A stretch of DNA of 64,000 nt from an uncultured Bacteroidia bacterium (GTDB lineage Bacteria > Bacteroidota > Bacteroidia > Bacteroidales > Prolixibacteraceae): contig CAIXZH010000119.1 in the NCBI GenBank assembly GCA_903923905.1, forward strand, positions 1 through 64,000, in the 5' to 3' direction. The position numbers and the translations under genes are program-made. Position 1 is the stretch's first letter. Each line of letters opens with the position of its first letter. Under the pieces are notes generated by a model. That model saw only the letters and a program-made list of their open reading frames with translations. It searched no databases and had not been told where the DNA came from. Of the stretch, positions 16,178 through 23,721 are shown in pieces.

Positions 16178-17203
16178 CTAATTTATTAAATCCAGTTTAA
16201 CCATATCCTGAATATCAAGCATTCCAATTGGAAGACCGTTTTCAGTCACAATAATATTATCGACCTGATTGGCATTAAAGATGTCTGCGGCTTTTTGTAA
16301 AAAAGAGTCGCCTTCAATTGAAATGGGGTTTGCTGTCATACATTCTCCGACTGAGGCCGTATTAATGTGATCTCCCAATTTTCGCATCTGGCGCCGGAGG
16401 TCTCCGTCGGTGAAAATGCCGGTAAGTTTGCCATCTTTAGTGACTACAGAAACTGCGCCCATTCCTGAATCTGTCATTTTCAGGAGTGCATCCAACACTT
16501 TACAATCAGTATCAACGATAGGATTTGCTTCTGAAATAACGCTCTTTACCTGAATAGTCATCAGCCGGGTATGCTGAAAGAACTGGTCTGTGCCCAATTT
16601 GGTCAGGTGATTATCCGCCAGCTTTTTCATGATGCTCCATGGGAGTGTGATATTATGTGCTCCAAGGCTTAGAGCATCCTTGATATGTTCAGGATATCTC
16701 ACAGATGAGAACATCACCTTACAATCGTAGTTATACTCTTTAATGACCGCGACAATTTGTTTTATCAGTCCAAGGGCATCATGTCCCTGATCCTGCATCC
16801 GGCCTACCAACACACATACATAATTTGCTCCGGCAGTCAGAGCCATATATGCTTGCTGAATATTGTAAACCAGGTGAAGATTGATTAAGAATCCTTCGTC
16901 GTGGAGTTTTTTACACGCTTTTACCCCTTCGAAATTGACCGGAATTTTGAAAACTGTTCTTTTCTTGTCCAATCCAAGGTTTAACAAACGATGGGCTTCG
17001 GCAACAATTTGTTCAGAAGTTTCGCCCAACGCTTCAATCATCAGCACAGGGACCATCTTCGATAATCTGATAATGGCTCCGTCGATATCGGTAATCCCGT
17101 TTTTGTGCATAAATGTAGGTGTAGTGGTAACACCGTCAATGATCCCCAGTTTCAGGGCTTCTTCAATTTCAGCAAGGTTAGCCGAGTCAAGAAAAAATTC
17201 CAT
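16178..17203 (-). CDS. Transaldolase/fructose-6-phosphate-aldolase-like domain fused to KdsD-type CBS pair
   Basis: Residues 1-220 are a class I aldolase of the transaldolase/FSA fold: FFLDSANL with Asp6, GVTTTPTFM, Schiff-base Lys86 in TVFKIPVN, GRMQDQG with Arg135, and NITLPWSIM. Residues 235-341 are a CBS pair whose GIFTDGDLRR and terminal LDIQDMVKLDLI resemble the C-terminus of arabinose-5-phosphate isomerase KdsD, where they follow a SIS domain. It is the last gene of the kdnA-kdnB-kdsA operon (6 bp after kdsA). I infer that it supplies or regulates arabinose 5-phosphate, the KdsA substrate. Changes at FSA positions 28, 109, 129 and 131 suggest altered specificity. Plain transaldolase activity is the alternative. 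Confidence 0.85.
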   Translation of the reverse strand: MEFFLDSANLAEIEEALKLGIIDGVTTTPTFMHKNGITDIDGAIIRLSKMVPVLMIEALGETSEQIVAEAHRLLNLGLDKKRTVFKIPVNFEGVKACKKLHDEGFLINLHLVYNIQQAYMALTAGANYVCVLVGRMQDQGHDALGLIKQIVAVIKEYNYDCKVMFSSVRYPEHIKDALSLGAHNITLPWSIMKKLADNHLTKLGTDQFFQHTRLMTIQVKSVISEANPIVDTDCKVLDALLKMTDSGMGAVSVVTKDGKLTGIFTDGDLRRQMRKLGDHINTASVGECMTANPISIEGDSFLQKAADIFNANQVDNIIVTENGLPIGMLDIQDMVKLDLIN

Positions 17204-17209
17204 AAATTA

Positions 17210-18052
17210 TTAGTTTAAATTTTTAGTTCTGTATTTTACTTCTATATTATGAATGTCGATCAGTGGTTTGAGAAACTCCGCAACATCGTCGATGCACATC
17301 TGGCTGGCTGCATCACATAATGCACGTGATGGATCAGGATGGACCTCAAGAAATAAGCCGTCAATGCCTGCAGCGACCCCCGCGCGTGCAAGGGTTGGGA
17401 TAAACTCCCTGGAACCTCCCCTTGGATCTGAACTAGGGATTCCATATTTGCGTATCGAATGGGTCACATCAAAGATCACCGGATAACCTGTTGACCTCAG
17501 ATGGTAAAAACTTCGGGGATCAACAATAAGATCATTATATCCAAAAGCATAACCACGCTCTGTGACCATAATGTTATAATTTCCGGCTTGTTCCGCTTTT
17601 TTCACCGGTTTAATCATATTTTCCGGGGAGAGGTACTGGGCATGTTTCAGGTTAAGAACTTTACCTGTTTTAGCCGCCTCTATCACGAGGGTGGTCTGCA
17701 TCACAAGATAAGCCGGTATCTGAATCACATCAACTACATCGGCCGCTGCTGCAATCTGATCCGGATAATGAATATCAGTGATCAGAGGAACATTGAACTG
17801 ATCCTTTATTTTCTGAAGCATTGCAAGCCCTTCATAAAGTCCGGGTCCGGAATAAAAATCGGCCGAACTGCGATTATCTTTCTGAAATGAAGATTTAAAG
17901 ATAAGCGGCAAATCGAGTTTCTCAGATAAACCAACCAGGAATTCGGCAGTGTCCATCATCGTTTTCTCATCTTCCACTACACATGGACCTGCAATCAGGA
18001 AAAGTTTGTCAGCCCCGCAGTCAATATTTCCTACTTTAATTATTTTCGTCAT
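17210..18052 (-). CDS. kdsA: 3-deoxy-8-phosphooctulonate synthase (Kdo-8-P synthase)
   Basis: Condenses phosphoenolpyruvate with arabinose 5-phosphate. Seen: LFLIAGPCVVED near residue 20, KSSFQKDNRSS, the DVIQIPAYL strand, GKVLNLKHAQYLSPENM, DVTHSIR and LEVHPDPSRALCDAASQM. The Cys in IAGPC, with the later His, Glu and Asp, places it in the metal-dependent class; E. coli KdsA has Asn at the Cys position. It is 10 bp downstream of kdnB and 6 bp upstream of the aldolase-CBS gene. The separate phosphatase KdsC and cytidylyltransferase KdsB are not in the window. Confidence 0.95.
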   Translation of the reverse strand: MTKIIKVGNIDCGADKLFLIAGPCVVEDEKTMMDTAEFLVGLSEKLDLPLIFKSSFQKDNRSSADFYSGPGLYEGLAMLQKIKDQFNVPLITDIHYPDQIAAAADVVDVIQIPAYLVMQTTLVIEAAKTGKVLNLKHAQYLSPENMIKPVKKAEQAGNYNIMVTERGYAFGYNDLIVDPRSFYHLRSTGYPVIFDVTHSIRKYGIPSSDPRGGSREFIPTLARAGVAAGIDGLFLEVHPDPSRALCDAASQMCIDDVAEFLKPLIDIHNIEVKYRTKNLN

Positions 18053-18062
18053 CCTGATTCTA

Positions 18063-19139
18063 TTACATTTTCATAAGCAGTCCGCGTAGTTTTTCCCGGG
18101 TAATAATCTTTTCCCAATCCGGTCCGCAAACATGCTGCCACATAAAAATAAGGGTTAAGGAAACATCGATCATTTGATCAATCTCATCGGGGGTACATCC
18201 GGCAGTTACACCATGGGGAATGTCAATATTATTAATTCGCATCATCTCCCTGAATTCTTTTACAGCCTCGGGATAAAATTCTTCCAGCTGATTGAATACC
18301 ACACAGTTTCCTACACCATGATGGATATTGGTTACAGTAGCCAGACCATAAGAGATAGCGTGGCAGGCTCCAACCTCTGAATAGGTTAAAGAGAGTCCAC
18401 CCAGATAAGAAGCAATCATCAGTTTCTCCTCATTTTCAGGTGAGCGGCTGTCGCTTCCTAAATAGATGTCTCTGAAAATCCGGAGAGATTCTGTTCCTAA
18501 TGAATCACCCATGACCGACTTACGATACCCGTTTAGTGCTTCAATATTATGAATATAACAATCCATCGCCGTATAAAATCGAATAGGTTCAGGAACCGTT
18601 GTAATCAATTCCGGATCGAGGACCAATTGGTCTGCTGCCGTGAAATTGCCTTTGATTCCTAGTTTTTTTACCGGACCAGTGAGTACCGTTGTCATGGACA
18701 CTTCAGCTCCGGTTCCGGAAATGGTAGGAATAACGGTGCAATGAACTCCCTTGTTCTTAATAAAATCGAGACCCTGATATTGTACAGAAGATCCTTCATT
18801 GGTAAACATCAGACGGATTGCCTTTGCATAATCCATAACTGTGCCCCCTCCGATACCCACTACGGAAACCGGCAGACCCTTATTAAGCCCTTTTATTTCG
18901 GCGACGATCTCATCGACAGTTTTTGTCTTTGGTTCGTCTATGGTATCAATCATTTTGAGAATATCCTGAGGATGAGATGGAATCCGTTTTAGAAAATCTT
19001 TCCCTTCAAAATATTTGTCTACAAGAAACAGAACGAATGAATCCTGTTCTATGCGTAATTCTCCGAGGATATCCCCGAGTTGGTCAAAACTATTCCGACC
19101 ATATAAAATCCGTCCGACTGGTTTTAAATTCCTGAACAT
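18063..19139 (-). CDS. kdnB: Kdo 8-oxidase KdnB-like iron-containing alcohol dehydrogenase
   Basis: Fe/Zn-dependent group III alcohol dehydrogenase fold: an N-terminal nucleotide-binding half with VVGIGGGTVMDYAKAI near residue 95, then a helical metal-binding half with TAMDCYIHNIEA, GACHAISYGL and IHHGVGN supplying the Asp and His ligands. In Shewanella, KdnB oxidises the 8-hydroxyl of Kdo and KdnA then transaminates it to give Kdo8N. The immediate neighbours kdnA and kdsA make that role much likelier than a generic alcohol dehydrogenase. Gap to kdnA is 7 bp. Confidence 0.9.
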   Translation of the reverse strand: MFRNLKPVGRILYGRNSFDQLGDILGELRIEQDSFVLFLVDKYFEGKDFLKRIPSHPQDILKMIDTIDEPKTKTVDEIVAEIKGLNKGLPVSVVGIGGGTVMDYAKAIRLMFTNEGSSVQYQGLDFIKNKGVHCTVIPTISGTGAEVSMTTVLTGPVKKLGIKGNFTAADQLVLDPELITTVPEPIRFYTAMDCYIHNIEALNGYRKSVMGDSLGTESLRIFRDIYLGSDSRSPENEEKLMIASYLGGLSLTYSEVGACHAISYGLATVTNIHHGVGNCVVFNQLEEFYPEAVKEFREMMRINNIDIPHGVTAGCTPDEIDQMIDVSLTLIFMWQHVCGPDWEKIITREKLRGLLMKM

Positions 19140-19146
19140 AACTGTT

Positions 19147-20340
19147 TTATTTAATTGCTTTTTTTAAAGCTGACCTCATTTTGGAGGCCAGTGTGTTTAA
19201 CTCCTCTTCACTCCAGTTTACCATAATCTGGGTCATCATCAGTCGTTGCATAATAGCATCCGATTGAGGGACCTGGAGGTTCTTATAGTCTGGTACATTA
19301 TTCATCTTCATCACCGGAAGATTGAAAATTGATTTTAACTCTTTCAAATGGCCCCATTGACGGTGATAGTGAAAATTATTCCGGTACCAATAGGATGCGC
19401 TGAGATCTTCTTTTTGAAATTCATCAAAAACCCTCGTTGCCTGATCTGCATCGGGGAGGAAAAAGGAAAGAAAGGTTGCAGAATCTCCCGCTTCGTCAGG
19501 CACGTGCCTCATCTGAATTTCGGGAAATTCCTTTAAAACTTGTTTTAGTATATTTTGATGACTCTTTTGTTTTTCAATCATATAGGGCAATTTGCGCAGC
19601 TGGGCAAGAACCACTGCAGCGCCAAGTTCTGATCCACGGAAATTATACCCGAGTATCGGATGTTGTTCTGCACCCCTTGCATTTCCGATGTGATCGTGTC
19701 CATGATCGGAATATTTATGAGCGCGGTCGTATAATTCATCATCATTGGTAGCAACCGCTCCACCTTCACCTGCAGTGATGATCTTGTAGTAATCGAATGA
19801 AAAGGCGGACATTTTGCCAAAATTTCCTAACATTTTTCCACGATAACTTCCACCGAGGGCAGGGGCAGCATCTTCAATCAGTATCAGGTTGTGTTTTTGA
19901 CAAACAGCCAGAATTTCATCCATTCTGCCCATTGATCCAAAAACCTGGACGATTAAAACAGCCTTAGTCCTTGGGGTGATTGCCTTCTCAATCCCTTCGG
20001 GACTTATACACAAAGTTTCATCAATTTCTGCAAAAACGGGAATTGCTCCGGCTAACAGAACTGCCTCGATAGGTGCAATAAAGGTATAGGGGGGAACAAT
20101 AACCTCGTCACCATATCCAATGCCACAACAAGCCAGCGAAAGTGAATCAGCTGCAGTTCCGCTGGCGCAGAAATGAGTGTGCTTAACTCCCAGGTAAGTG
20201 CTGAATTCTTGTTCGAAAGTCTTAGCTTTCCAAATTCCATTGCGTTGTGAATCATGTCCGTACCGAAATAACACTCCTGTTTCCAGTACATCCATAACCT
20301 CTTTTCGTTCCTCGTCCCCGAAAAGTTCAGTGCCTGCCAT
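19147..20340 (-). CDS. kdnA: Kdo8N transaminase KdnA-like (DegT/DnrJ family)
   Basis: PLP-dependent sugar aminotransferase of the DegT/DnrJ/EryC1/StrS family. Seen: THFCASGTAADSLSLA near residue 55, VIVPPYTFIAPIEAV, LIEDAAPALGG with the PLP-contacting Asp, the Schiff-base Lys in FDYYKIITAGEGG near residue 183, and GYNFRGSELGAAV. Length (397) is normal. As first gene of the operon with kdnB and kdsA, it is expected to transaminate 8-oxo-Kdo, using glutamate, to 8-amino-3,8-dideoxy-octulosonate. The amino group would change inner-core lipopolysaccharide charge and susceptibility to cationic peptides (known from Shewanella; inference here). Confidence 0.9.
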   Translation of the reverse strand: MAGTELFGDEERKEVMDVLETGVLFRYGHDSQRNGIWKAKTFEQEFSTYLGVKHTHFCASGTAADSLSLACCGIGYGDEVIVPPYTFIAPIEAVLLAGAIPVFAEIDETLCISPEGIEKAITPRTKAVLIVQVFGSMGRMDEILAVCQKHNLILIEDAAPALGGSYRGKMLGNFGKMSAFSFDYYKIITAGEGGAVATNDDELYDRAHKYSDHGHDHIGNARGAEQHPILGYNFRGSELGAAVVLAQLRKLPYMIEKQKSHQNILKQVLKEFPEIQMRHVPDEAGDSATFLSFFLPDADQATRVFDEFQKEDLSASYWYRNNFHYHRQWGHLKELKSIFNLPVMKMNNVPDYKNLQVPQSDAIMQRLMMTQIMVNWSEEELNTLASKMRSALKKAIK

Positions 20341-23061: not shown

Positions 23062-23721
23062 CTAACTGAAAAAATGGTGATCCAGCAGTATTTTTTCTAC
23101 CGGACTAACATTATTTAGCACTAAAGTCCGGTAAGCCATCCTGGCCACTTTTTCGATAACAACCGTATGATCGAAAGCGCTGCTTACATCTTTTCCCCAA
23201 CAGAAGGGTCCATGACCGTAGACAAGGACACCGGGGATCCGCATGGGATCAAGATTGCGTGACAGAAACGTATTCACTATCATTTTCCCTGTTTCCAATT
23301 CCAGATTGTTCTCTACCTGTTCAATAGTCAGCGGTAACGTACAAGGAATTTCTCCATTGAAAAAATTGGCATGAGTGATGCCAAGTGGAGGAATACCTCT
23401 TCCAGCCTGTGCCCAACAAGTTGCATATTCAGAATGGGAATGAAGAATTGCACCGATATGGGTGAAATTCTTATATAATTCAAGATGAGTATCGGTATCT
23501 GTAGATGGCTTAAGTGTCCCTTCCACGATATTTCCGTTCAGATCCATCACGACCATATCCGCAGGAATCATCTCTTCGTAAGAAACCCCGGATGGTTTAA
23601 TCACCACCAGACCCTTCTCCCGGTCAATTGTGCTGACATTCCCCCAGGTATAGATAACAAGACCTTGTTCCACGAGTTTTAAACTGGCCTTATAGACCTG
23701 ATGTTTCAGGTTTTCGAGCAT
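23062..23721 (-). CDS. araD: L-ribulose-5-phosphate 4-epimerase
   Basis: Class II aldolase-fold Zn enzyme that epimerises L-ribulose 5-phosphate to D-xylulose 5-phosphate. Seen: VIYTWGNVSTID near residue 22, VIKPSGVSYEEM, the HSHSEYATCWAQ motif with two Zn-binding His near residue 95, a THANFF strand and the third His in VYGHGPFCWG. Length (219) is usual. AraD, UlaF and SgbE cannot be told apart here, and no arabinose genes adjoin it. Confidence 0.9.
   Translation of the reverse strand: MLENLKHQVYKASLKLVEQGLVIYTWGNVSTIDREKGLVVIKPSGVSYEEMIPADMVVMDLNGNIVEGTLKPSTDTDTHLELYKNFTHIGAILHSHSEYATCWAQAGRGIPPLGITHANFFNGEIPCTLPLTIEQVENNLELETGKMIVNTFLSRNLDPMRIPGVLVYGHGPFCWGKDVSSAFDHTVVIEKVARMAYRTLVLNNVSPVEKILLDHHFFS

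Follow-up and report, generated by a model that had tools for sequence, protein, structure and literature searches.

Lipopolysaccharide contains Kdo as an essential component, and in the known pathways the first precursor dedicated to this sugar, arabinose 5-phosphate (A5P), is made by the isomerase KdsD. The locus described here raises the question of where A5P comes from when kdsA is accompanied by a gene that joins a transaldolase-type barrel to a KdsD-like CBS pair. The window, that is, the whole stretch of 64,000 nucleotides that we analysed, belongs to an uncultured Bacteroidia bacterium of the Prolixibacteraceae.

The four-gene locus and its fusion protein

The initial annotation had described a tight packing of kdnA, kdnB, kdsA, and a transaldolase/CBS gene, and this was borne out: the four ORFs lie on the minus strand (Table 1), separated in the order KdnA, KdnB, KdsA, fusion by gaps of 7, 10, and 6 bases. 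The KdnA-like protein matched 5k8b (E=7e-135) and the KdnB-like protein matched 5k8c (E=3e-104), with the next enzyme families far behind in both cases. The molecule names of these Shewanella structures are 8-amino-3,8-dideoxy-manno-octulosonate transaminase and 3-deoxy-manno-octulosonate 8-oxidase, respectively, and homologues of both sit here beside Kdo genes, as in a Kdo8N biosynthesis operon. The kdsB gene of the same genome is on a different contig, and kdsC was found neither within the window nor next to kdsB. Among the matches listed, the nearest named relatives of the fusion (≤95%) were from Bacteroidia MAGs, several of them Mariniphaga or Prolixibacteraceae.

Table 1. Positions of the four genes and of the two parts of the fusion in the window
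Feature	Positions	Strand	Basis
DegT-family aminotransferase, KdnA-like, putative Kdo8N aminotransferase	19147-20340	minus	Pfam and PDB match
Fe-ADH family, KdnB-like, putative Kdo 8-oxidase	18063-19139	minus	Pfam and PDB match
KdsA, Kdo-8-phosphate synthase, fusion-linked KdsA clade, KDNRS motif	17210-18052	minus	NCBIfam and tree
TAL/FSA barrel (~1-216) with KdsD-like CBS pair (~217-336), Lys86; proposed A5P source	16178-17203	minus	
TAL/FSA domain of the fusion	16556-17203	minus	Alignment and structure comparison
CBS pair of the fusion	16181-16561	minus	Top three PDB matches are arabinose 5-phosphate isomerases

The fusion protein (341 aa) gave Pfam matches to TAL_FSA (6.8e-38, residues 3-216) and, over two stretches, to CBS (5.1e-17). 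Its CBS part was best fitted by the KpsF/KdsD/GutQ profiles of NCBIfam and was 25-37% identical to 20 KdsD CBS pairs, all of which scored above the IMPDH of the same genome. The protein thus has a KdsD-type CBS pair, with a TAL_FSA domain at the N-terminus in place of the SIS catalytic domain. In an AlphaFold2 model made with 44 homologues (mean pLDDT 92), the barrel aligned with the transaldolases of B. subtilis and T. acidophilum at Z ~30 (29.9 to 3r8r), and Lys86 aligned with the Schiff-base Lys, both features of the TAL/FSA superfamily PF00923. The annotated architecture, a transaldolase barrel with Lys86 followed by a KdsD-like CBS pair containing GIFTDGDLRR, was therefore correct.

The active site resembles that of TalC-type transaldolases (T. 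maritima 1vpx, B. subtilis 3r8r, T. acidophilum 3s0c) only in part. The fold is the same (Z ~30 over 210-217 residues, ~33% identity), and Asp6, Glu57, Lys86, Asn108, and Arg135 are common to both; in 85 fusion sequences, these residues were kept together with Ser167 and Arg169, Lys86 was invariant, and a single row had a gap at position 6. Unlike the TalC type, the fusion has a C-terminal CBS pair, a Kdo operon context, and a set of substitutions. None of the residues Asn28, Thr110, Ser130, and Phe132 of ordinary TalC transaldolases is present, and the donor/water-site changes N28T, T110H, S130C (Thr in five), and F132L were found in all 85 sequences; D137Q is a further uniform change. The invariance of T28 in 80 loci is partly due to selection, T28 being included in part of the seed used for the search; that of the other changed positions is not. 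By spacing, the four donor/water-site positions correspond to TalB N35, T156, S176, and F178, all of which are mutated in TalB structures according to the PDB titles, while the equivalents of TalB D17, E96, and K132 are unchanged.

The fusion also shares its fold and Schiff-base Lys with E. coli FsaA. Unlike FsaA, it carries the CBS pair, lacks the FSA residues Gln59 and Tyr131, and reached 167.3 bits against the fructose-6-phosphate aldolase equivalog TIGR00875, below the cut-off of 245.95. Leu132 stands in place of Tyr131, the position of the Tyr in TalB F178Y, and turnover of a free donor may be poor because this Tyr is missing. In the tree, all fusion TAL domains were on one side of a branch with 100/100 support; the FsaA row of the alignment and tree, an outlier in the latter, served as a yardstick only. 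An ordinary-length TAL was encoded elsewhere in all six fusion genomes tested. The fusion as the only transaldolase of its genome was thus rejected, and it is not required as the pentose phosphate transaldolase of these genomes.

Absence of KdsD and distribution of the fusion

KdsA needs A5P, and the genome of the window was searched for a SIS-CBS KdsD. In this genome (5.4 Mb, 97.8% complete), the profile search gave no match above the KpsF/KdsD cut-off, neither a SIS-CBS nor a SIS-only KdsD, and the best match of the KpsF profile was the CBS half of the fusion. The SIS proteins present were GlmS, a GlmS-like isomerase, an AgaS-like isomerase, a GmhA-like protein, and a MurQ-sized protein. Other genomes within the order yielded weaker KdsD relatives (~1e-44 to 1e-48), and the one inspected (L179) was SIS-only. 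Since the same search finds such relatives elsewhere in the order, a SIS-only KdsD would have been detected here; comparable forms match at ~1e-45, none did in this genome, and this candidate was rejected.

We then surveyed 395 Bacteroidota genomes for the fusion, KdsA, and KdsD. A full-length fusion was present in six, found without the search seed and, leaving aside the genome of the window, with 52-58% identity to the window protein; the next-best matches had 38-39% identity and no CBS part. KdsA was detected in 287 genomes and KdsD in 283, with both in 276. The 11 genomes with KdsA and without KdsD comprised the six fusion genomes and five others. Accordingly, KdsD was missing in 6/6 fusion genomes versus 5/281 non-fusion KdsA genomes (Fisher p = 6e-10, relatedness being ignored). 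The six span five families, and KdsD genomes also occur in four of those families.

Among 48 further fusion genomes, which were reached by name, KdsD was missing in 44. Three of the exceptions (Chryseolinea serpens, Sphingobacteriales 44-61, and Cytophagales Alg240-R148) have a KdsD away from kdsA; the fourth, Prolixibacter denitrificans (L179), has a SIS-only KdsD relative of ~210 aa beside the fusion in the same genome.

In five KdsA-containing genomes of the 395, neither KdsD nor the fusion was detected. Near-complete Bacteroidota genomes of this kind are G023, G200, and G272 (KdsA loci L180 and L181). Such genomes may have another A5P source, or genes may have been missed.

Gene neighbourhood and the partner KdsA

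A contig search gave at least 539 relatives (not necessarily all fusions), from which 80 loci were kept, all of them fusions; most are from Bacteroidota, and some are from Desulfobacteraceae and other MAGs. The fetched DNA contained kdsA in 65 of these 80 loci, adjacent to the fusion in 55. In the 44 full-flank loci among the matches listed, kdsA was found in 39 (adjacent in 32), a KdsC-like HAD phosphatase in 32, and kdnA in 25; the KdsC-like HAD protein scores below the KdsC cut-offs. With KdsA also present in 6/6 surveyed fusion genomes, co-occurrence and linkage of fusion and kdsA are tight across genomes, as the initial annotation would lead one to expect. For comparison, 20 KdsD genomes, chosen for kdsA-kdsD proximity, show the order kdsA-(kdsC)-kdsD. 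Fusion loci carry kdsA and kdsC-like neighbours as KdsD loci do; the fusion therefore fills the slot of KdsD.

The reading of the locus as a Kdo8N pathway module held in part. The kdnA and kdnB genes are indeed present here, and, as in the Shewanella Kdo8N pathway, their products are homologues of KdnA and KdnB, in this case encoded in one operon. However, the module is not tied to Kdo8N alone: kdnA/kdnB were found in only 45 of the 80 loci kept from at least 539 relatives, so that more than one third show neither, and unlike the Shewanella pathway this one has a fusion-type A5P source. In MAGs of Desulfobacteraceae/'Deltaproteobacteria' (L138, L141, and L099), the gene order is kdsB-kdsA-fusion-kdsC without kdnA/kdnB. 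The fusion module is thus dedicated to Kdo as such, and to Kdo8N in the lineage of the window.

In a few cases, the fusion is found apart from Kdo genes. One copy (L045) adjoins a heparinase-like gene; another, the second copy of Labilibacter marinus (L094:5117-12726), adjoins transketolase in a TAL - transketolase - TAL-CBS - phosphoglucomutase - FBPase cluster, while the other copy of this species (L093) adjoins kdsA.

The window KdsA scored above the PRK05198 and TIGR01362 cut-offs (TIGR01362, 318.9 bits versus a cut-off of 314) and keeps the NRS A5P motif (KDNRSS). The KdsA proteins of fusion genomes separate from those of KdsD genomes as a single clade (support 100/100). This clade is set off by a long branch and takes in G190, where the two genes are unlinked, as well as the proteins from Desulfobacteraceae. 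The pairwise identities of KdsA were correlated with those of the fusion (r=0.82), and the A5P-binding loop reads KDNRS[ST] in the fusion clade versus KANR[ST]S in KdsD-type KdsA, a change that may bear on the KdsA acceptor. The KdsA of L138, L141, and L099 nests within the Bacteroidota fusion clade, which suggests that the whole module was transferred between Bacteroidota and Desulfobacteraceae/'Deltaproteobacteria'.

Candidate reactions of the fusion enzyme

The initial annotation proposed an alternative, CBS-regulated source of A5P. KdsD absence together with kdsA co-occurrence and linkage gives this proposal good genomic support, and the reaction itself we infer. The fusion is likely the A5P source of its partner KdsA, and it has probably replaced KdsD in this role. 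It resembles KdsD/GutQ/KpsF in its operon slot by kdsA/kdsC, its homologous CBS pair, its complementary distribution, and presumably its product. Unlike these SIS enzymes, its catalytic domain is a TAL/FSA barrel; the mechanism therefore differs from that of KdsD, and the substrates probably do too. Points that count against this reading are the 4/48 fusion genomes that hold a KdsD or SIS-only relative, the five KdsA genomes with neither KdsD nor fusion, and the few fusion copies away from Kdo genes (such as L094 and L045).

The annotation had also stated that FSA-type enzymes can join glycolaldehyde to glyceraldehyde 3-phosphate (G3P) to give a pentose 5-phosphate, and the literature agrees. 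The preferred substrates of FsaA and FsaB are the donor glycolaldehyde and the acceptor G3P, from which they form A5P (PMC6298115), and from these substrates FsaA yields A5P alone in vitro, whereas TalB F178Y yields A5P and R5P (PMC9947464). By our own derivation, the stereochemistry of D-arabinose 5-phosphate is that of the FSA product when glycolaldehyde stands in for dihydroxyacetone. A weaker use of dihydroxyacetone would fit the fusion because the Ser equivalent to TalB S176 is lost, and FsaA A129S raises dihydroxyacetone affinity, according to the title of a reference cited in PMC6298115.

On this basis, Lys86 would bind a two-carbon aldehyde donor, presumably glycolaldehyde, as a Schiff base, and the enamine would add to D-glyceraldehyde 3-phosphate held by Arg135/Ser167/Arg169, with D-arabinose 5-phosphate released to the partner KdsA. 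In the genome of the window, the resulting Kdo would be converted to Kdo8N by KdnB and KdnA. The CBS pair may throttle the enzyme in response to an end product, for which CMP-Kdo and CMP-Kdo8N are the probable candidates; such end-product throttling via the CBS pair was proposed for KdsD. Binding of A5P in a transaldolase appears in the PDB title of 3upb (transaldolase of Francisella in covalent complex with arabinose-5-P). A5P is also reported to be a covalent inhibitor of transaldolase. The glycolaldehyde aldol route in particular is tentative, our judgement falling just on the doubtful side; no glycolaldehyde supply was identified in the cell, which counts against a route from the free aldehyde.

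That supply problem would be solved if the fusion made A5P from pentose 5-phosphates, acting on them as an epimerase (or isomerase) of the retro-aldol kind. In this scheme, Lys86 would bind C1 of ribose 5-phosphate, C2-C3 cleavage would leave a bound two-carbon enamine and G3P, and the enamine would be re-added on its other face to give arabinose 5-phosphate without free glycolaldehyde. Both C2 epimers are within reach of the TAL fold, as the two products of TalB F178Y show (PMC9947464). The phosphate-site residues are kept, and the transaldolase-like Glu57 and Asn108 with Leu132 in place of Tyr131 fit a donor retained on the enzyme. However, the enamine face would need to turn. We know of no natural TAL-fold epimerase, and we regard this reaction as possible but unlikely. 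In its fullest form, a TAL-fold R5P/A5P 2-epimerase, regulated by CMP-Kdo via the KdsD-like CBS pair, would have taken the place of KdsD, along with a KdsA clade to match, in many Bacteroidota and in some bacteria resembling Desulfobacteraceae, a speculation that is rather unlikely.

Two further explanations are improbable. If the fusion made a different aldose phosphate, its KdsA clade would make an isomer of Kdo or a sugar acid related to it, for which the long branch of that clade and KDNRS versus KANRS/KANRT at the A5P-binding loop could speak; but this KdsA scores above the Kdo8P synthase equivalog cut-off with NRS kept, and the genome also encodes genuine homologues of KdsB and KdnA/KdnB. 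It is equally hard to believe that the fusion is an ordinary transaldolase under CBS control, with A5P supplied by a moonlighting GmhA-like or GlmS/AgaS-like SIS isomerase. The TAL fold and catalytic Lys, the encoding of GmhA-like and GlmS/AgaS-like proteins in the genome of the window, and the copy in the TAL-transketolase-PGM-FBPase cluster are compatible with it, but the fusions uniformly carry other residues at donor-site positions that do not vary among the ordinary TALs in the comparison, all six fusion genomes tested have a separate TAL, and the KdsD replacement pattern would be left unexplained.

Many Bacteroidota without the usual A5P enzyme thus carry a transaldolase-type enzyme with a KdsD-like regulatory domain instead, which points to a second, unrecognised start of the essential Kdo pathway. 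A literature search, in which few subscription journals were covered, found no report of a transaldolase-CBS/KdsA link or of a Bacteroidetes KdsD alternative, and nothing on CBS with CMP-Kdo. If true, a non-homologous enzyme in the place of KdsD would clearly exemplify enzyme displacement within an essential pathway and would change how KdsD-directed inhibitors are expected to work across Bacteroidota. It would also assign a natural role to a reaction that is otherwise known only from the promiscuity of FsaA and from its use in synthetic glycolaldehyde pathways, for which a high-affinity A5P aldolase is wanted (PMC9947464).

Elsewhere in the window, the ORF at 23062-23721 looks by eye like the class II aldolase/L-ribulose-5-phosphate 4-epimerase (AraD) proteins, which as a family are retro-aldol epimerases.
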